A model generated the notes under the pieces. The model searched no databases and was not told the DNA's origin. It was given only the letters and a program-made list of their open reading frames with translations. 64,000 nucleotides of DNA, from positions 109,643-173,642 of the forward strand of contig NBIV01000170.1 in the NCBI GenBank assembly GCA_003194525.1. The letters are read 5' to 3'. The position numbers were made by a program, and so were the translations under genes. The DNA is from Gracilariopsis chorda (taxonomy: Eukaryota; Rhodophyta; Florideophyceae; Gracilariales; Gracilariaceae). Each line of letters opens with the position of its first letter. Position 1 is the first letter of the stretch. Shown piece after piece: positions 3,926 to 57,919 of the stretch.

Positions 3926-5268
3926 ATGAATGAGTTCAACGACGTCTTGAAACTTAAGGTACCACTACTGACTGCTAAGAACTGTTTTATGTGGTCGAAC
4001 ACGCTAGACTTGGTACTGAGAGCAAAGGGGGCATGGTCCATTGTAATTGAATCTGAGACCAAACTAGAATATGTTGAAGAAGAAATACCCAAGTTCGAGC
4101 GTCGTCGGGACATTGCCCTGTCGGCAATACTGCAATCCGTTCACCCTGCATGTGTAGCTTCATAAGTAAGGCTTCGCGATTCAGTATTTATCTGGAAAGG
4201 GTTGAGCTCGAGTTTAGAGAGTGAATCTCAGGTTATTCTGGATGCATTAGTCGAAATGAATCAAGGTATGAGGTTGAGACCGGCAGAGTGCATTATGCAT
4301 TTTTCAAGCCGGCTTGCAGAAGTGAAGTCGAAGTTAAGTGGAATTGGTAAGATCACACCTGACGACTAAAGACTTCGAGCATTAATGAGAGGCTTACCAG
4401 ATGAGTATAGCACAACGAAGGAGATAATTAGGGGACTTGAAAAGTCCTATCAGCAAGAACTGGCAATACTTATTCAGAAAGAGGTAGAGCTCAGACAGGA
4501 TGATGGAAAGGAAGAGGACGTTAGAGAGCATGGCATGCCGACTAAGGGAAATACTGAAAGAAGCAGCTACTTTGTCCACGGACGAGGAAAATGTTACCAC
4601 TGTGGGAAACCTTTCCACAAGATGGACAGATGCTGGGAGATTCCGGACAGTAAGTGTTACCGAGGCAATGGCATACACAAGAAGAAGCCCAGGAAAATGA
4701 ATCAAAGACCGGAGAGAGATGACAAATATATGGCAGGACTACTACTTTATGCTCATGGCTCAGAAGTTCAGCATACATCTTGTCATGAGGAAGGGCAAGG
4801 CCTTGTTGCCAAGTATCAACGGGCACCCGGGGCAAGCCGAAAGTGGTATTTGGATTCCGGAGCATCGAAACTCATTACAAATTCGTGTCAAAACTTCGAT
4901 GGAGAAGTCCTTAAACCGCACAGCACAAAGATTTCTGTTGGCAGCGGTGAGATCCTGGATGTTAAAAGGATGGGAACAATTCAGTGCAAGGTGATGGAAA
5001 ATGGAGTAGCAATCCGGATAACACTTCGTGAAGTCCATTACATCTCTAAAATGGCTTGTATTCTGGTATCCGTAAGTGCTATCCGTTAAAAAGGGTTTGA
5101 CATGGCGCTTTCAACCAATGAGAACTGTAATGAGATTGCTACTGTAACCAAACCATTAATGAATATGCCAATTGTTGATGCTTTGGAATTGGAACATGGA
5201 CTATACGAAGTGCTGCTGAAGGTAAAGGACTCAGATGGAAAAGCGATGCTTTGCTCCGATGATTGACC
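3926..5268 (+). pseudogene. Ty1/copia gag-protease relic
   Basis: One frame reads through gag into protease with stops at 4163 (TAA), 4366 (TAA), 5087 (TAA) and about 5264. The N-terminal part (CFMWSNTLDLVLRAKGAW) resembles the copia gag N-terminus. The middle (LRALMRGLPDEYSTTKEII) is the usual gag 'sLP..y' region. A CCHC zinc knuckle CYHCGKPFHKMDRC follows at about 4594-4635, then the aspartic protease site KWYLDSGASKLIT (about 4842-4880). The integrase and RT expected downstream in copia elements are missing. All breaks within gag-protease are nonsense changes and I see no frameshift. Confidence 0.8.
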
Positions 5269-5529
5269 TTAATATTAGTCATAGAGATCTTGATTATTTC
5301 TATGGGTGCGGTGGTTCCGATTGGAACTGAAGACATTTTGGTCAGTTTCTCTCGCAGTTTTTTGGGCAACGGGGATCATTTGCTCTATGCCATGGTTCTC
5401 TGCAACGAAAACAATGTGCGTGCTTGCGGCAGTGTTCTCTGGTTTTCTGGGTAAGGTTATATAACTTCACGTTCCCAATTTCCACCAGTACGAGTCAATT
5501 AGTCTGCCGGTGGACGTCTGCCGATCTGC

Positions 5530-47481: not shown

Positions 47482-47758
47482 TGTCATACGTGTACTAAAC
47501 GTGTATCACAGCAATGACATAAGTTAGCAATGTCATTGCTATTCCGTATTTAATTGGATAGCATGGCAATTAACCCTCCAGCTACTTGCCACGTGTAAGA
47601 TTTATGTTACAACCGAGAAGCATGTAAGTAGGTTTGCTTCACTGCCCTCGGTTGCAGAATGAACAAGAGAGACAACACAGAAAGACAGAAAAACAAACAG
47701 ACAGACACACAGACACAACAATGAATATTCTTGGCGCCGCCCTTTTGCAGCGCTAACA
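47482..47758 (+). repeat. 5' LTR, copy 1
   Basis: 277 bp, preceded by the CTTTC duplication. Contains a CAGACAGACACACAGACACA microsatellite tract near its right end. The first gag ATG overlaps its last base. Confidence 0.9.
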
Positions 47759-48680
47759 TGATACTCTCCAAGAGGGTCGATGCCTCTAGTGCGGACTCTC
47801 GCATATACATCGTTGAGGCCAGTTCACAAAATCATGTTCTCAAGTTCATTTTCTACTATGAAAGTTTCATTATGAAGAAAACGTCATCAGAAGAGAGAGC
47901 GTCAGAAATCATCGGATATCTCGACTGTGAAGCATTTGAATTCTATTATGATACGTATGCGATCAATTTCGCTTCATCTAAAGAGGCTTTGGACTACTCT
48001 GAAGTAAAACGTTTCCCACTTAAACGTTTTGCAGTTTTTGAAGAACCAAAAGAGCTTACTAGGACAGGAATAACATGTAAGCTTCGACCACTGGAACTTT
48101 TGGAGGCTTTGAAGGAAATAGATGTGTTTCGAGACAGCTTGTTTCAACGAAAATGACAAGTATGGACGTTTTCGGAACGCTGTCGTAGAGCATATGGATC
48201 TTCTTCAGTTCATCTTTGTCAAATGAGCGGATGAATATGAGCCTTTGAAGAAGAGAGTTAAAAAATATGTGAGTTGTGTAAAGTCCTTTCAAACTTCATA
48301 TTCATTTTCTCACGGTTCATCATGTCGTCGAGATGAACAAAGGAAAATCATGCGTCGTTTAGAACAGGCCGCCCAGTCTTTGGAAAACAAGGTGGAGGAT
48401 CTGAGTGAGCAGTTATCAAAACTCTCTCTGTTAGTGAAGACAACACATAGTGAGCCATCACAAGAAAGTATGATTCGCACCTGTTTGTATTGCAAGAATC
48501 TCGATCATGGAGCCTCAAAGTGCCCCAAAACCGACAAAGAAACACTCGTTGTCGAAGATGTGACAAACATTGGCATTCTGAAGCTACATTCTGGGCAAGA
48601 ATTCCACCTCCGGAGCCGAAGAAAGTACGAATTTCCGAGGCTGATATTGAATCGAAACCCGAGGGGAACCTGAAATCATC
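47758..48680 (+). pseudogene. Gag of copy 1
   Basis: The ATG at 47758 opens MILSKRVDASSADSRIYIVE, then RASEIIGYLDCEAFEFYYD and ELTRTGITCKLRPLELLEAL to the stop at 48154. After a one-base phase change the protein continues KYGRFRNAVVEHMDLLQFIF, one stop, and a coiled stretch EQAAQSLENKVEDLSEQLSK. A knuckle follows, CLYCKNLDHGASKC (C-x2-C-x4-H-x4-C, about 48482-48523). A second knuckle remnant, CRRCDKHWHSEATF, lies in the next frame, with its last Cys changed to Phe. No capsid family is obvious from the first half. Confidence 0.65.
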
Positions 48681-50022
48681 CTCTGGTTCTAACGCAGGCC
48701 TATCTGAAAATAATCAGGTAACGGTGGTCACTGACTGTGAAGAAATAGACATTGTGAATACTGCCAAACAGGGTCCTGATGGCCAGGCCATGCCAAAGCA
48801 ACAAAAGGCATCAGAAGCTGATTACCCGCCCTTGCTGAATCCAATGGAGCGCGTTTCTATGAACGTCGGGGAGAAAGAGCCTATACGACTCCCCTCCATT
48901 CGGAACAGAATTTCCACTAGAAAAACAGCACAAAAGAAGAAAGCTTCCAATGAACGCAATTCATCTATACCGGATCATGTTGGCAAGTACCACGTGTTGA
49001 TTGAACTTGCCAATGCCTCATGTGGCCTCAATTTTGGACAACGCTTGTGCGGAGACGCTGATGAAGCCAAGAAGCAAATCAAGAAGTTATTCGTGAAGAA
49101 TGTTGCACCTCGAGCAATGCCTGCTACGCTGGCAGATTCACCCACTAGAAGACTAAACGTTGTCTCAGTGAAGGTATATGGAACAGCTGTTGCAGCGGTA
49201 TCGGACTCTGGAGCAGTACCGAATCTTATGCCCCTTTCATTTGCAGAAGGACTTGGCTTATCTCTAGAATCTACCACTAGAAAGATAACGGTGGCTGATG
49301 GAACCTCATCTGTTGTGAAAGGGATAATAAGGAATATACCAGTAACTTTTGGAATTTCGAGAACACATTTGAACTTCCTAGTTGTTGAAGAACCCCCGTT
49401 CGATGTCATCGTAGGATTACCGACATTGGAGGAATTACAGACCTGTCTAGACCTTGGTATTCAGAATGTGATGGTTTCCATCGATAAAAAGACATCTGTC
49501 CTAGACGTGGATTATGATTACAAGATACCGAGTCTACTCGACTCTGGTACCGACAGTGAAGAATTCACAAGTGATTCTGATATTGTTCCTTTCCCAACCT
49601 CCTCCGAGAGCGAGAGTGAGAAAGATCTGGTGCTTTCAGTAAGGGATGAGATCCCTTTCGAGCCAGACATATTTCATGCTGAAGAAGAGGAAAGGATTCC
49701 GGATTTGCTAGAAGAATATCATAATTAAGATGATGAAGACACCGCATCGGAGACTGTTTCTGAAGAATATGATGAAAGGTCTGCTCAGTTAGCGACAAAG
49801 TTGAAATATTTACCACTACATGTACAGCAAGTGTTAAGCCAGACAATGAAGAACAAAAACATCATTGCCTGGTCTTTGGAAGACCTGCGCCCATCTGATG
49901 TTCTACTGAGACATTCATTCGAGCTGAATTATCCAACACCAATATGCAGTAGGGTGCGAAGACTGCCTCCGAAATATAATGATGTTGTACGAAAAGAGAT
50001 CAAAGTACATGCTGCGCATTAG
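48681..50022 (+). pseudogene. Aspartic protease and RT entry of copy 1
   Basis: One frame, entered from gag near 48490, is open to 49728 and continues in phase after a stop to 50022. An acidic, Ser-rich linker leads to VAAVSDSGAVPNLMPLSFAE (about 49190-49250), a protease with D-S-G-A, and FDVIVGLPTLEELQTCLDLG, its C-terminal motif. A second acidic region follows, then RLPPKYNDVVRKEIKV, which would lead into RT, but the frame is lost near 50010. Confidence 0.7.
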
Positions 50023-52465
50023 TATAATTACCCCGTCGGCTTCTGAGTGGTCTTTTTCTGTCGTTATTGCACTGAAAAAGGATGGCATACCTCGCTTTTG
50101 AGTTGACTATCGAGCCCTGAATGTAGTGATGAAAGCCGATCGTGTGCCTTTACCGAAGATCGATGAGATATTTGATGACCTGAGAGTATCAACAACTTTT
50201 GCAAATTTAGATCTATTCTATGGATACTGGCAGGTAAGAATGGCTGACTATTTCAAATAGAAGACAACTTTCGTTTGCAGATACAGTGCTTACCAATTTG
50301 AAGTCATGCCATTTGGACTTATGAATGCCCCTGCTACTTTTCAGAGAATGATGGATGTTGTCTTGAAAGGACTAGAATTCGCCATGTATGTGGATGATGT
50401 TGTAATAATCTCGAAGAATATCGAAGCCCATATAGATCATTGCTTACAAGTGTTTAACCTAGTTGAATCTAATGGATTGAAGAATAAGGTTACGAAATGC
50501 AGCTTCGCTCAATCCAAAGTGCGACTCCTCGGCCACATTGTTCATGGTAGTGGAATTCAAGTAGATCCAGAGAAGATTACAGTAATACAGAAGGAATTCG
50601 AGCCATCCAACGCATCTGAATTAAGACATTTTCTGGGACTAGCCAGGTATTATCGTCGTTTCATACCACATTTCGCAGAAACTTCGGCAGTCTTCCATGA
50701 AGCTACATCAGAAAAGAATAAATGGATTTGGACCTTCGATATGCAGAATGCATTTGAAGAACTGAAGGTGAAGTTGATTACGCCACCTTTCCTCGAATTT
50801 CCTGACTTCAAATCGCCATTTGTCGTAGAAACACATGCCTCTTCTGTTTCGCTTGGTGCTGTTCTTGCCCAGAGAAAAGAAGATAACAAGCTGCAAGCCA
50901 TGCAGTATGCCAGTCAGACTATGACATCGGCAGAACGAAACTATTCAGCATGCCAACGTGAAGCACTTGTGGTCATATTTGCGCCGAAGAAGTTAAGGTT
51001 GTACTTGTTGTCAGCCCTTCCTTTTACATCGATAACTGACAACCAAGCGCTGCAGTACGCATTTAAGAAGAAAGATATACACAGAAGACTTGCGAGATGG
51101 ATGGATTTTCTAGCCGAATACGATTTCAAGAGTTAGTACCGCTCAGGGAAGAAGAACCAAGCGGCCAACTATTTATCACGAATTATGATTGATGAGATCG
51201 AAGAACAGTATGAGGATGCGAGCTGTATCATTGTGGAAAACTTAGAGTCGTTGAGAATGGAGAATCATTCGGAGGATACTCTGAGATACCTTAACGGTAA
51301 AGACACCTTGGAGAAAGACCCCAAACGTCAAGGAACTATCCGCCGAAACGCAAAGATGTTTGTTGCTTGTAATGATAGACTGATGAAACGTACCTCCAAA
51401 GGCCTCCAAGTAATCCCTCCACTTGCTTCAAAAACGTTAATTCTGAAAACATGTTATGATGATGTTGGGCACTGGAATGTTCAATATACTAAGAAAATTG
51501 TTTTGTACAGGTACTGGTGGCCGAACATTCATCGTGAGATCATTGATTATGTCAACAGTTGTGATGGATGTCAACTAACTGTGCCCATACCAACATACAG
51601 CACGACACTGAAGCATCCTCTCACGGGCTTGTTTCACATATTTTCAATTGACTTTGCCAGACCATTCCCAGACACAACTTTAGGAAATAGGTTCACGTTA
51701 GTCGCAGTTGAGCATCTAAATAGATAGCCTCTTGCTTGGGCTCCACAAACTGCCACCGCTTAAGTCGTTGTTAACTTTGTGCAGAAGGAAATAATCTTTC
51801 CTTTTGGGCCTCCTCATCTGATCATCTCTGACAATGCGACTTGCTTTACCGCAAGTACTTTAACGAACTTTACGAGTAAGCATGGCATTGTCTGGAAAAC
51901 CGTATTGGCCTATGCTCCAATGTCAAATGGAAGAGCTGAGAGGATGATTGGAACTTTGAAGAATGCTATGAGAAAAACTGTTTTAGAGTCTCAGAAGACT
52001 TGGGATGAAGCAATTCCCGGTGTCCTATACGGATATCGGCGCCGTTCACTTCGAGGAGGCAGTTCACCTTTTGAACTCCTGTACGGAATTCCTCCCCGAA
52101 TGACTAATGATGACGCCACCCCATTACTTCTAGCTGCCACTGAGACTCATCGGAAATTGGAACTAGATACTTTGATTTCGAGAAGATTCAAGAGGATTGA
52201 AGATCAATCTCAACCGAAGACTAGACATACGCGAATTATCACATTTAAAGTTGGTGATGAGGCGCTCATCTGCAAAGGCAAAGCACTTAACCCTGCTAAG
52301 AAATGACCGGCCTTTACATCCAAGTACTTCGGCCCATGCCGTGTGACCAGCGCCAATCACCCTCGCTATGAACTGAAAAGTATGCACGGTAGAGTGACAA
52401 GACAACCTGTTCATGCCAGGAGATTGAAACTCTATCGCCGACGCCGATTGATACCGGAAGATTAA
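50000..52465 (+). pseudogene. RT, RNase H and integrase of copy 1
   Basis: RT begins SASEWSFSVVIALKKDG with TGA where relatives have Cys, then FANLDLFYGYWQVRM, VMPFGLMNAPATFQR and FAMYVDDVVIIS (palm Asp kept, about 50380-50412). RNase H: FVVETHASSVSLGAVLA, where the first catalytic Asp of the usual 'TDAS' is His. Integrase: GHWNVQYTKK with CDGCQ, HIFSIDFARPFPD, LIISDNATCFT and MSNGRAERMIGTLK. From 50306 to 52465 the phase never changes; stops lie at 51134, 51725, about 51761 and 52304. The last, a TGA before PAFTSKYFGPCRV, is also in the sister copy. Confidence 0.8.
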
Positions 52466-52561
52466 AAACCAAAATTCATTAGGCATTGAGCATTTGATTA
52501 ATTGAACATTTATGAAGAGTGCATATGCATATGTAAGCATTTTGCATGTTGAGTATGATTA

Positions 52562-53783
52562 TTTGCTATTGGTAATGCGTAAAGTACATCTCTGGTAATT
52601 CCGCGACGCGAGGACTGCGTTGCTCACCTCCTCCGCTAAGTCTCAATGAAGCCATGCATAGTTTGATATGATGAGACTCGGCACTGTCGATTATGATCCC
52701 TTTCAAAGAATCAATGACAATGACAAAGTTTATTCCAGAACTATTGCGAAAACGAACCAAATACCAATGAGGACCAGAGAATCCAGCTAAGAAGCCGAAG
52801 GTGTACATGTAATTTGGTATACGTCGAAGATCAACCCCGAGACCAGAAGTTCGAATAGCATTTGATGCACTAGAAACACTTTCCAGTACATGAGGAAACT
52901 AAAACAGTGCATTCTGCAGTAGACCTGCGAACTCTACGGCTTTCGTGCTCGACATAGAACGGTATAGAGCCATCTGATATGCGCAGTTCGTAGCGGCAGC
53001 AAGATGACAATTGCCGCTGTTCTGTCGCCGAAATGGCCTGTTAACGTGTGGAACATGAAAGTGCCGTAGGCCAGGGACAGTTGAATGAGCACCAGGTTCT
53101 CCAATAACAATTCTATATCCTGGATATGTCCGAATAGCATTCAATATCCTTTCGGTATTCGGTATACCCCTATCGACCAGAAGTAAAAGATGACGAAACA
53201 CCAAAGCGAACACGAATTTTCTTCTGCGGATTTTAGCGCCGTGCATGCGGAGTCTCAGCAATCATAGTTCGGGACACAGAGTCCCCGTCTTCATTTAAGA
53301 GTGAAATCGAGTTGATATCAACCTCATGAAATTGATGAATGCCACCTCGAGATGACAAACATGCATAAAACATTGCCGATCGAAACATTTTGTTTTCAAG
53401 CCGTACTCCATCTAAAACCATTAGCTTTTCAATGACCTACTCATCCTTTGACGTTTGAACCTTATTTGAAAATGCTCCACCTGCGTACATATGCAAACAA
53501 AGTATAAAGGCCAAAGTACTCGAAGAAGACTGCCCATTACCACTTGATTAAGAAACTAAAGAAAAAGTAGAAGTTCGAGCAGTGTTAAATTCTAAACGCC
53601 GACATTTTTCTAAGATTTCAGCAAAAAATCCGCAATATCAGCATAGAAAGTAGTTGGTGGATTGCCATGGACATATTTTGGATTTGGGCAACGGAAACAC
53701 CGAGAACGACAAATTGGAGGATTTCTTTGCTGTATTCGAGCAACATGTGATGTACGCTCTTTTGGGGGATTGCGACACCGCAT
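52562..53783 (-). pseudogene. Antisense papain-like gene, decayed (copy 1)
   Basis: Reading on the minus strand from the ATG at 53783 (MRCRNPPKERTSHVAR), it aligns along its length with the intact gene at 55193-56398 but has several stops and frame breaks (near 53615, 53230 and 52905). The putative nucleophile region is kept, RRQNSGNCHLAAATN, while the putative catalytic His is Phe (SGINFVIVIDS). The terminal TAG has become TAC, adding two codons. In this copy the gene is dead. It lies between the end of pol (52465) and the 3' LTR, opposite in direction to pol. Confidence 0.8.
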
Positions 53784-53975
53784 TGGAGTCAGAGTAGCGC
53801 ACAGACTAAACCGTGAACCGGGGTTGAGTGGGCAACCTGCAGCTGCAACTCTGATTGTGTGCAAATAAATCTGCGAACGTTGACTTTCGACCGTTTACCA
53901 GAAGTTGAAAAACAGTCGGAGGGCGATTCTATTGCACATAAGCTGCGATAGACCATTTGAAGAGGTTGAGTGCAG

Positions 53976-53984
53976 TTTATATAG
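53976..53984 (-). promoter_or_regulatory. TATA box of the antisense gene, copy 1
   Basis: The minus strand reads CTATATAAA, about 190 bp before the ATG at 53783 and just inside the 3' LTR. The same box is kept in the sister copy at 54992-55000. Confidence 0.6.
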
Positions 53985-54014
53985 AGTTCAAGCGCCAGCC
54001 CCGTGGCACGCGCT

Positions 54015-54027
54015 GGGGAGGGGATCG
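54015..54027 (+). other. Polypurine tract of copy 1
   Basis: GGGGAGGGGATCG directly before the TGTCAT start of the 3' LTR. The sister copy has the reverse complement at 54951-54963. Confidence 0.7.
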
Positions 54028-54309
54028 TGTCATACGTATACTACACGTGTATGACAGCAATGATATAAGTTAGCAATGTCATTGCTATTCCGTATTTAAT
54101 TGGGTAGCATGGCAAGTAACCCTCCAGCTACTTGCCACGTGTAAGATTTCTGTTACAACCGAAAAGCATAAACTGTAAGTAGGTTTGCTTCACTGCCCTC
54201 GGTTGCAGAATGAACAAGAGGGAAGAAACAGACAGACACACAGACACACAGACAGACACACCGACACAACAATAAATATTTTCGGCGCCGCCCTTTTGCA
54301 GCGCTAACA
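54028..54309 (+). repeat. 3' LTR, copy 1
   Basis: 282 bp, followed by CTTTC (54310-54314). Differs from the 5' LTR by about ten substitutions plus indels in the CAGACA tract and a short insertion. Confidence 0.9.
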
Positions 54310-54314
54310 CTTTC

Positions 54315-54697
54315 CTTAGTTTTCAGTTCAACATGGACTACGACAAATTTGACGCCTCTCTTGTGGAATGATCCTCAAGGATAGGTGCTTTGCTTTGAAA
54401 AGCACTGCATCTACAAAGCTCTGAAAAAAAATCAACGTCGCGATAATCAAAGATTTTTCCCCCGAGATTGGACATTACTGTTGTTCGCAAGCGCGTGCAG
54501 AGCCAAAGGGTACGGTGGAAAGTCACTGAGCAAGCAGCACGGGCGCGTTGCTGGAAAGTCTCCGAGTTTTTGCGCCGTGATGGCAGCAACGGTGGCGCGA
54601 ATCACGGAAAGCAGGTTCCCCTTCTGCCTCCCTCCTCCGTCGCAACCGGGGGACAGCGAGGATTGGTTTACTAGATCTCGAAAGTCGCCATGGTACA
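54315..54697. other. Spacer between two oppositely oriented 3' LTRs
   Basis: No gene or motif recognised. It separates the tail-to-tail copies of the same family. Confidence 0.55.
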
Positions 54698-54950
54698 TGT
54701 TAGCGCTGCACAAGAGCGGCGCCGAGAATATTTATTATTGTGTGTCTGTGTCTCCTCTTCTTTGAGTTCAGTGTGCAACCGAAGGCAGTGAAGCAAACCT
54801 ACTTATATGCTTCTCGGTTGTAACAGAAATCTTACACCTGGCAAGTAGCTGGAGGGTTACTTGCCATGCTACCCAATAAGATACGGAATAGCAATGACAT
54901 TGCTAACTTATGTCATTGCTGTCTTACACGTGTCTGACATGTATGACACG
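54698..54950 (-). repeat. 3' LTR, copy 2
   Basis: 253 bp, minus strand, TGTCATACATG...GCTAACA. Roughly 10% different from the LTRs of copy 1 and with a shorter CAGACA tract. Confidence 0.88.
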
Positions 54951-54991
54951 ATCCCCTCCCCAGCGCCTGCCACGGGCCCGGCGCTAGAACT

Positions 54992-55000
54992 CTATATAAA
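54992..55000 (+). promoter_or_regulatory. TATA box of the antisense gene, copy 2
   Basis: CTATATAAA about 190 bp before the ATG at 55193. Conserved with copy 1 at the same distance. It lies within the retroelement, just inside the LTR, and points opposite to the element's own transcript. Confidence 0.65.
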
Positions 55001-55192
55001 CTGTACTCAACCTCTTCAAGTTGTCTCTCGCAGCTTGTGTGATATAGAATCGCCCTCCGACTGTTTTTCAACTTCTGAGAAGCGGTCGAAAGTCAACGTT
55101 CGCGGATTCCTTTGCACAGAATCAGAGTTGCAGCCGCGGGCGGCCCACTCAACCTCGGTTCACGGTTTAGTCTTTGCGCTCTTCTGACTACA

Positions 55193-56398
55193 ATGCAAAG
55201 TCGGAATCCCCCAAAAGAGCGTACATCACATGTTGCTCGAATGCAAGCAAGCAATCTTCCAATTCGTCGTTCTGGGCGTTATCGTTGCCCAAATCCAAAG
55301 TATTTCCATGGCAATCCACCAATTACTCCTCGTGCAGATATTGCGGATATTGTTGATGAAATCTTAGAAGAAGGTGGGCCTTCAGATTCAAACACTGCCG
55401 GCACTTCTACGTATGCTTCGTTTTCTTCATCAGGTGGTAGTCGGCAATCTTCGTCGAGTACTTCGTCTTCTGGAAGTTCTTCTCATATGTCTGCTGGTGG
55501 ATCATCTTCGAATTCTCTTCAAACGTCACAGGGTGAGTGGGCCATTGAAAAGCTAATGGTGGGAGATGGAACCCGGCTTGGAAACAAAATGTTTCGACAT
55601 GGAATGGTTTATGCATGTGCGTCATCTCGAGGTGGCATTGACCAATTTCATGAGATTGATGTCAACTCGATTTCACTCTTCGATGAAGACGGGGACTCTG
55701 TGTCCCGAATCATGATTGCTGAGACTCCACATGCACGGCGCCAAATTCCGCAGAAGAAATTTCGTGTTAGCTTCGGTGTTTCGTCATCTTCTACTTCTGG
55801 TGGACAGGGGTATACCAAAAGGATATTGGATGCCATTCGGAGATATACAGGATGTAGCATTGTTATTGGAAAACCTGGTGCTCGTTCAACTGTCCCTGGC
55901 CTACGGCAATTTCATGATCCCCGCGGTAATAGGCCATTCTGGCGACAGAACAGCGGCAGTTGTCTTCTTGCTGCCGCTACAAACTGCGCATATCATATGG
56001 CTCTATATCGTTCTAGGTCGAGCACGAAAGCCGCAGAGTTCGCAGGTCGACTGGAGAATGCACTGTTTCAGTTTCCTCATGTACTGGCAAGTGTTGCTAG
56101 TGCATCAAATGCTATTCAAACTTCTGGTCTCGGGCTTGATGTTCGGCGTATACCAAACTACATGTACACCTTTGGTTTCTTAGCTGGTTTCTCTGGTCCT
56201 CATTGGTACCTGGTTCGCCTTCGCAATAATTCTGGAATAGACCATGTCATTGTCATTGATTCTTTGAAAGGGATCATAATCGACAGTGCCGAGTCCCGTC
56301 ATCTTAGACTATCCATGAGTTCTTTGAAACTTTGTGGTGGAGGTGAGCGACGCAATCCTCGCGTCGCAGAAGTACGAAAGATGTACTTCACGCATTAG
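55193..56398 (+). CDS. Papain-like cysteine peptidase-like protein, antisense gene of an LTR element
   Basis: Intact, 401 codons from the ATG at 55193; the frame is open 27 codons further with a TTG start only. The N-terminal part is basic with CPNPKYFHGNPP. Residues about 74-109 are a Ser/Gly tract. The C-terminal half has WRQNSGSCLLAAATN, with Gln 252 and Cys 257 spaced much as the oxyanion Gln and nucleophile of papain-fold enzymes. HWYLVRLRNNSGIDHVIVID gives His 351 and Asp 356, and GIIIDSAESRHLRL resembles the block after the His in transposon-associated papain-like domains. This suggests a cysteine protease or deubiquitinase-like enzyme, by inference from motifs only. Its own TATA box, the antisense direction and its presence in two copies make it a standing part of the element. 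It converges on pol with about 115 bp between the ends. Confidence 0.75.
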   Translation: MQSRNPPKERTSHVARMQASNLPIRRSGRYRCPNPKYFHGNPPITPRADIADIVDEILEEGGPSDSNTAGTSTYASFSSSGGSRQSSSSTSSSGSSSHMSAGGSSSNSLQTSQGEWAIEKLMVGDGTRLGNKMFRHGMVYACASSRGGIDQFHEIDVNSISLFDEDGDSVSRIMIAETPHARRQIPQKKFRVSFGVSSSSTSGGQGYTKRILDAIRRYTGCSIVIGKPGARSTVPGLRQFHDPRGNRPFWRQNSGSCLLAAATNCAYHMALYRSRSSTKAAEFAGRLENALFQFPHVLASVASASNAIQTSGLGLDVRRIPNYMYTFGFLAGFSGPHWYLVRLRNNSGIDHVIVIDSLKGIIIDSAESRHLRLSMSSLKLCGGGERRNPRVAEVRKMYFTH

Positions 56399-56511
56399 CA
56401 ATAGCAAATAATCATATTCAATATGCAAAATGCTTAGATATGCATATGCAGTCTTCATGAATCTTCAATAAATCAAATGCTTAATGCTTAATCAAAGTTG
56501 TTTCTTAATCT

Positions 56512-57112
56512 TCCAGTATCAATGGGCGTCGGCGATAGAGTTTCAATGTCCTTGCATGAATAAGTTGTCTTGTCACTCTACCGTGCATACTTTTTAGTTC
56601 ATAGCGAGGGTGATTGGCGCTGGTCACACGGCATGGGCCGAAGTACTTGGATGTAAAGGCCGGTCATTTCTTAGCAGGGTTAAGTGCTTTGCCTTTGCAG
56701 ATGAGCGCCTCATCACCAACTTTAAATGTGATAATTCGCGTATGTCTAGTCTTCGGTTGAGATTGATCTTCAATCCTCTTGAATCTTCTCGAAATCAAAG
56801 TATCTAGTTCCAATTTCCGATGAGTCTCAGTGGCAGCTAGAAGTAATGGGGTGGCGTCATCATTAGTCATTCGGGGAGGAATTCCGTACAGGAGTTCAAA
56901 AGGTGAACTGCCTCCTCGAAGTGAACGGCGCCGATATCCGTATAGGACACCGAGAATTGCTTCATCCCAAGTCTTCTGAGACTCTAAAACAGTTTTTCTC
57001 ATAGCATTCTTCAAAGTTCCAATCATCCTCTCAGCTCTTCCATTTGACATTGGAGCATAGGCCAATACGGTTTTCCATACAATGCCATGCTCACTCGTAA
57101 AGTTCGTTAAAG
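56512..57112 (-). pseudogene. Integrase C-terminal part (copy 2)
   Basis: Minus strand, TLTNFTSEHGIVWKTVLAYA, MSNGRAERMIGTLKNAMRK (carrying the third catalytic residue, Glu) and LLYGIPPRMTND, to NPAKK and then TGA, the same stop as in copy 1. It continues PAFTSKYFGPCRVT to the pol end near 56512. Over the roughly 500 bp up to the TGA it differs from copy 1 at only a few bases, far fewer than the antisense gene and LTR next to it. Confidence 0.85.
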
Positions 57113-57919
57113 TGAAGTGCAACGCCCTCAGGGAGGGATTCTGGGTACTTGAACGCTTTCTCGATATTATCGGTTGTGTAGTGTGTATATGAACTACGCC
57201 CCACAATGGTGGGTATGGACACGTGGGACACGGTTTTGGGTCAATTGGCAGTTGGCCATAGTAGTGGATGTTGCCACGGAATGTGGAGTATTTTAGTTAA
57301 TTTTATTTATTATTTTCACACCCATTTCTGGGAAGCTAGTACTTAGTGCGACGGCGCACTGCCGTCGCACCAGTAAACCTTCCCCAACAAGGGACCCCAA
57401 CCTGGGGAATTGGCTCTGAGCTTTACCGCCTCCGCGTGTTCTCAACTCCTCCTTGGAGGGAAGCACCGTAGTGTACGGAAGTTCACCCCCCTTGCACATC
57501 TAAAGGAGACCCATCATTGGGAGTACTAATTGTTCCAATCATATTGGTGTTTCGCCCTGTATAGGGAGTCCTGTCCACCGGCATTGCCGTATCTACTCGT
57601 CGCTCTCGCGACCCACTCGTCCTTCCTCTTTCCCCTTTTTAGGGTAGCACCTCCCGCTATCCGCGGCCCTCTTGTGCGCATCCGCTCACACACCCCCACT
57701 TACGTGGAAACATACCTCTACTGAGGATCACGCCCCGCTCACGCGGATACCGATTCTTCGCCTTCACCTCCCTGCGCGAGTCGCGACAGGTGTCCCTGGT
57801 CTTACAAACCGGCTTCGCCGTGACACCTCTGGGAGGGCTCTACCCATCTGGGTTCACCTCGTGAGAGGAAGATCCCGGACGTCTTTCGGTGTTTTTCCCC
57901 TTTGGGGCATTGCACCACA
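57113..57919 (+). repeat. Inferred 5' LTR of the GC-rich element
   Basis: TG...CA ends (TGAAGTGCAACG and CACCACA) and the adjoining primer-binding site define it. The partner LTR is outside the window, so it is unproven. Palindromes include CCCTGTATAGGG (57555-57566), CCCCTTTGGGG (57897-57907) and TGCGACGGC/GCCGTCGCA (57347-57369). Confidence 0.6.

Follow-up and report, generated by a model that had tools for sequence, protein, structure and literature searches.

The 64,000-nucleotide stretch of DNA analysed here (the window) contains an intact open reading frame of 401 codons that belongs to an antisense gene family of both Ty3/gypsy and Ty1/copia-type LTR retrotransposons. The ORF lies at 55193–56398 on the plus strand, and is supported by the ORF call and by an alignment of its family in the genome. 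It is called the cargo below. The cargo is a selected protein, as its invariant Cys, His and two Asp residues and its low dN/dS between lineages indicate. It is most plausibly an old antisense accessory gene of LTR retrotransposons, probably encoding a cysteine hydrolase that helps the element in trans; our confidence in this reading is somewhat better than even. The family is selected between lineages and has a few invariant residues that can be mutated, so that whether the protein is an enzyme, what its target is and how it benefits the element can be tested directly.

The cargo is flanked by the 3' LTR and the integrase of a truncated Ty3/gypsy element (element B), and is antisense to it, as the initial annotation had described. 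The LTR copy (54698–54948, minus strand) is oriented like the integrase, and the polypurine tract of the element (CGATCCCCTCCCC on the plus strand) occupies 54949–54961 on the minus strand. On the other side is an integrase fragment (56664–57206, minus strand, opposite to the cargo), which is 93% identical to the pol of contig C42 and matches the rve_3 model with an E-value of 5.4e-4, under the Pfam cut-off. Element B is itself a fragment consisting of the LTR, the cargo ORF and the partial integrase; the gag of another element starts near 58.4–58.9 kb, beyond it. The 401-codon frame is confirmed in the sequence, and Gln252, Cys257, His351 and Asp356 are found in the window protein at the positions first assigned to them. 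The protein has a basic N-terminus, the predicted Ser-rich linker (approximately residues 64–113) and a C-terminal half with the invariant Cys257, His351, Asp356 and Asp364. A TATA-type box, TATATAAAC (TATATAAA), at 54993–55001 on the plus strand, 200 bp 5' of the cargo ATG, may be the cargo promoter. The claim that the gene has its own TATA box holds for the window, but such a box is present at -196 to -236 in only 4 of 7 cargo copies of the family and absent from the other 3.

No minus-strand ORF of at least 150 aa is listed within 55193–56398. Constraint imposed by an overlapping sense gene was rejected on this ground, and because third positions of the antisense frame are the most variable. 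Contig C926 matches 54082–57898 of the window with 0 mismatches and 14 gaps, and its cargo ORF is split near codon 130, which leaves a doubt about the intact state of the frame. In view of the 0 mismatches, C926 was rejected as an independent copy. In all it repeats 53378–57898 in two overlapping pieces (0 mismatches, 12–14 gaps), and it resembles a redundant, less polished contig.

The host of the cargo had been described as an LTR retrotransposon. The element holding the intact ORF is a fragment, but its sister (element A, 47482–54309) is complete, with CTTTC flanking both outer sides. The 5' LTR of element A (47482–47758, plus strand) is immediately preceded by CTTTC, and the 3' LTR (54028–54309, plus strand) has a polypurine tract before it and CTTTC after it, forming a 5-bp target duplication. 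The protease, RT-RNase H and integrase ORFs (48490–52306, plus strand) are in the gypsy order and are broken into several frames. The sister was said to carry the same gene at the same place; the place is indeed the same, but the copy (about 52575–53783, minus strand) is broken by stops and frame changes, and has Phe at the position of His351. In both elements the ORF runs against the direction of pol and lies in the interval that separates pol from the 3' LTR. Element A is inverted relative to element B, with 3' LTR facing 3' LTR. The facing LTRs are separated by a gap of ~0.4 kb (54310–54697), and a long inverted repeat results.

A six-frame search of the same genome with the window protein returned 93 matches, and four other family members used as queries returned 81, 105, 105 and 64. 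These totals are lower bounds and are not gene counts, since the lists overlap and contain fragments as well as several pieces of one copy. The family was sorted into five groups, whose representatives outside group I are 19–33% identical to the window protein (19–30% for groups II–V in the full alignment, 33% for C439 in the genome search). Group I comprises the window ORF and C42, which are 67% identical. Group II includes C64, C25, C417 and others, group IV C51 and others, and group V C66 and others; group III is the single copy C439, for which the best match other than itself is the window ORF (32%). Many copies in the genome are broken. Stop-free full-length frames were found in group I for the window and C42, the only two in 18 tallied places (one of the 18, C926, being the window locus again), and in group III for C439. 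Among the matches listed, such frames also occur in group II (C64, C25, C417), group IV (C51, C678, C75, C153, C638, C29) and group V (C66, C85, C5, C28, C154, C13, C52). The first 40 residues carry a net charge of +6 to +11 in all 7 members compared, and the group IV representative also has a basic tail (net +9).

In four of the groups the cargo is antisense to pol and lies next to its end. Three of these are in related gypsy lineages (I, II and V) and one in Ty1/copia-type elements (IV), and the order of pol and cargo agrees among them. On C42 (group I) the cargo is on the plus strand and an RT-integrase ORF of 679 codons on the minus strand. On C64 (group II) the cargo is likewise on the plus strand and integrase and RT on the minus strand, with a second antisense ORF in between. 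For the C42 and C64 copies the placement is taken from the order of pol and cargo. On C25, also of group II, both antisense ORFs are present and no pol ORF was found within the 8 kb examined. On C66 (group V) RNase H-integrase is on the plus strand and the cargo on the minus strand; LTR-like matches at 296488–296665 and ~303463–303634 flank 7.1 kb that contain the cargo (301541–302782). By coordinates, such a pair brackets the cargo on 9 contigs, C66 and eight others. The gypsy pols of groups I, II and V are 60–62% identical in integrase and 72–79% in pieces of RT-RNase H.

In group IV, pol lies on the minus strand of C51, 25 bases past the stop of the plus-strand cargo. Its two ORFs both match RVT_2, the Ty1/copia RT model, one above the curated cut-off (E 1.3e-11) and the other below it (E 8.8e-6). 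We read the stretch before the RT as integrase; no integrase model matched it at E 0.1. By coordinates, matches of 199 bp resembling LTRs bracket the cargo on 6 contigs, as on C153 (170398–177353, cargo at 175486–176781).

The second antisense ORF of group II lies 3' of the cargo on the plus strand, at 4613–5329 of locus L034 (238 codons) and 4707–5309 of locus L031 (200 codons). The two copies are 62% identical over 200 codons with a dN/dS of 0.31 (0.20–0.45), and a 210-residue piece of the L034 copy has no Pfam match.

The group III member on C439 (L032:2722–3942, minus strand) is intact and stands alone, ~0.5 kb from an RNB exonuclease gene. No pol was found among the other six ORFs in 7 kb, four of which were scanned against Pfam. 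It may be a domesticated element copy or a host relative. Its position beside the exonuclease gene, and the presence of one family in gypsy and copia elements alike, would be expected if a host gene family had been captured repeatedly and were carried as a passenger, the antisense place merely sparing gag-pol. However, no second stand-alone copy was noticed, this one could equally be a domesticated element gene, and the low dN/dS between lineages speaks for use inside elements, so that repeated capture is considered improbable.

Selection was assessed by the Nei-Gojobori method, with bootstrap intervals for chosen pairs. Between lineages dN/dS is mostly 0.11–0.39. The group I value is 0.35 (0.25–0.45). 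The 15 pairs of group II range from 0.11 to 0.65, the top value belonging to the near-identical pair C352–C63, and the pairs bootstrapped in this group gave 0.15, 0.16, 0.37 and 0.39 with upper bounds of 0.21–0.65. In group V, C13 against five others gave 0.19–0.25 (C66–C13 0.19, interval 0.12–0.32), and the ten pairs among five young copies gave 0.80–1.06, or 0.93 pooled. Group IV is saturated and yields no value. As a yardstick, pol pieces of element A or B against C42 gave 0.47, 0.48, 0.70 and 1.45, with wide intervals. Differences between C64 and C417 number 69, 65 and 189 at the three codon positions, an excess at the third.

These values bear on whether the ORF has any protein function, since a frame open by chance, or a transcript with an antisense regulatory role, might show the ~0.9 seen in young group V copies, and many copies are broken. 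The group V value is the result least favouring selection, and is also what decay after insertion would give. However, the third-position excess, the low dN/dS and the invariant Cys, His and two Asp speak against such a reading, which we consider very improbable. With dN/dS below 1 and third-position excess between lineages, and many open relatives, the ORF is more than a chance frame, and that candidate was rejected. The initial annotation had named a dN/dS near 1 as a result that would count against its reading; bootstrapped pairs between lineages gave 0.15–0.39, but the youngest group V copies do approach 1. The gene persists in many copies and is constrained, with the ~0.9 of these youngest copies as the exception.

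An alignment of 14 rows, some of them close kin, has seven invariant columns: C257, G335, H351, D356, D364, E367 and L373, in numbering converted to the 401-residue window protein. All 21 places free of stops in the aligned pieces keep Cys257, His351, Asp356 and Asp364, and 10 of the 24 places with stops have a change in one or more of them (Fisher p 0.0007, a value that ignores the relatedness and age of copies). The tally covers 45 places, one locus each, from 63 partly repeating loci. It includes only four places of group IV and omits L021, the N-terminal fragment of C926, which ends before these residues. The stop-free places include C926 (the window locus), five group-reference rows, as well as C700 and C199, each made up of pieces in different frames. 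The idea of a conserved antisense cargo gene with Cys, His and Asp in an LTR retrotransposon is supported by this alignment, and the expectation that intact copies keep Cys257 and His351 was borne out. Gln252 fared differently as a conserved catalytic residue. It is confined to the group of the window, and among the remaining groups the representatives show G, S, D, E or T instead. Seven representatives have Q, G, S, D or T in this column and N, S, E or R in the next.

In most rows the Cys precedes an Ala-rich helix-like stretch (GxCLxAALxN), the His begins a strand-like stretch (HVVxVD), and LDS follows 13 residues past the His (LDP in the C99 row). The order of Cys, then His, then Asp or Asn, with the Cys before a helix-like stretch and the acid after the His, recalls papain, C39 and OTU enzymes. 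The acid partner lies ~16 residues after the His in papain and C39 enzymes, so that Asp364 fits this role better than Asp356, and the two are equally invariant. Papain-type enzymes (clan CA) have a conserved Gln or Asn 5–6 residues before the Cys. The cargo family shows the clan CA order, but no conserved Gln or Asn before the Cys. Of the papain-like set first proposed, the invariant Cys, His and Asp stand in order, but Gln252 varies and Asp364 has as good a claim as Asp356. In Ulp1-type (C48) peptidases the order is His-Asp-Cys; this type was rejected, the invariant Cys preceding the His in 14 of 14 rows.

Unlike papain-type enzymes, the cargo has no significant sequence match to a clan CA family in Pfam, NCBIfam, PHROGs or the PDB, by sequence or profile. 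The best matches were taken as chance: a colipase-like family in Pfam (E 1.1), an amidase in NCBIfam (0.16, residues 46–108), an unknown family in PHROGs (0.062, in the Ser-rich part), and in the PDB a designed protein (0.15) and the mitochondrial ribosomal protein mL43 (0.44, an NPG stretch before the Cys). Relatives outside this genome were sought among 5.8 billion proteins. None was found with P0001 or with a five-row alignment as the query, the best 8000 word-sharing candidates being scored, and residues 205–401 gave 874 candidates, none at E ≤10. Pattern matches to the family in viral contigs (58) and in prokaryotic GTDB genomes (116) yielded 0 confirmed relatives. Elicitins (PF00964) were sought as a marker of the host group and found neither in this genome nor in any of the 14 controls, so that their absence carries no weight. 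The negatives for the family leave room for relatives in other organisms, because a word search finds close relatives only and the other searches covered viral or prokaryotic DNA. A papain-like fold is offered as a prediction, given no significant match in family, PDB or protein databases. That the cargo may work like a papain-type hydrolase is a lead, and membership of the clan is not claimed.

The same data could suit a conserved non-enzymatic protein, still encoded antisense, whose invariant residues serve to maintain its fold and whose task is to bind nucleic acid or to regulate the element. The basic N-terminus in 7 of 7 members, the basic tail in group IV, the varying Gln and the missing peptidase match are in keeping with this. 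However, the invariant set is a Cys, a His and two Asp, not a Cys/His cluster, and its order and spacing are hydrolase-like by comparison with the enzymes named above. We regard a non-enzymatic role as a possible but less probable explanation. Such a role has a proposed precedent: the antisense TRP28 proteins that Retand elements of plants encode have been suggested to bind DNA and to act in regulation (PMC11963269).

Under the hydrolase reading, this antisense gene between pol and the 3' LTR probably has a promoter of its own, situated just inside the LTR. Its product would begin with a part that is basic and variable, followed by a C-terminal domain, most likely a cysteine hydrolase. In that domain Cys257 would open a helix, His351 would lie on a strand and Asp364 (or Asp356) would be its partner, in the papain-type order Cys-His-Asp. 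The gene would be retained because it helps the element in trans. The most likely target would be a host factor limiting the element, cleaved or deconjugated, or else a protein of the element. Ubiquitin-like tags or silencing factors, the targets first suggested, would be candidates, and action against host silencing is a guess.

The window copy also appears to be a mosaic. In 300-bp windows element B is 89% identical to C42 at the LTR end, 53–73% from the promoter side through the N-terminal half of the cargo gene, and 83–98% towards the integrase, with 96–98% in the integrase. Synonymous divergence between the two cargo genes, by sixths, is 1.18, 1.45, 1.43, 0.64, 0.36 and 0.14, compared with 0.07–0.12 in pol. 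As the divergence is seen at synonymous sites, recombination is a likelier cause than selection, and the promoter side and N-terminal half probably derive from recombination with a distant relative. C700 shares the pattern, and element A, C77, C128 and C3 are without it. None of the 7 pairs compared in groups II and V has a divergent island in the cargo. As a general feature of the family such an island was rejected; it was seen in the window copy compared with C42 and with C700. In group V, sequence between the LTR and the cargo also varies among copies, and the cargo itself does not.

An unrooted tree separates groups IV and V from I, II and III with support of 99/98, group III forming a long branch. 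Rooting on group IV would agree with the split between copia and gypsy. Common inheritance of the cargo by both types looks unlikely to us, because their pols are so far apart; the gene more likely moved between elements or was captured by them separately. A fuller account, which we advance only tentatively, is that one antisense hydrolase gene passed between gypsy and copia elements and serves in trans for counter-defence or protection of the element, that its promoter and N-terminus were swapped by recombination, and that the C439 copy is now a host gene.

Antisense ORFs between pol and the 3' LTR are already known from plants, where their role is described as undetermined (PMC7264820). In plant Retand elements an antisense protein is coded at this place in most copies of the family (PMC11963269). 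The cargo resembles these in strand, in position and in its presence in most copies of a family. However, most Retand antisense proteins carry TRP28 (PF04195) (PMC11963269), for which 7 cargo members gave no match at E ≤10, and the cargo family keeps its invariant Cys, His and Asp and is found in elements of both the gypsy and the copia type. The brtn gene of Boty elements in Botrytis (PMC7264820, PMC8365987) is likewise an extra antisense gene of a gypsy-type element outside plants; the excerpts describing it mention no peptidase-like site, and the comparison is one of description, not sequence. In bdelloid rotifers, additional ORFs after pol are also common to diverse types of retroelement, but those named in the excerpted text are env-like, DEDDy, GDSL and similar, not peptidase-like, and 'antisense' there refers to small RNAs (PMC5408684). 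The main text of a paper on oomycete retrotransposons (PMC5348765) has 0 occurrences of 'antisense'. In the open-access papers searched, no report was found of a peptidase-like antisense cargo, or of one antisense family in both the gypsy and copia superfamilies. While the position is known, a cargo family in both superfamilies looks new.

Cargo copies on contig C43 lie near 285745, 292468, 299193 and 305916, with a regular spacing of ~6.7 kb, and regular spacing is also seen on C677, C678 and C1064. These look like head-to-tail arrays of elements with shared LTRs.
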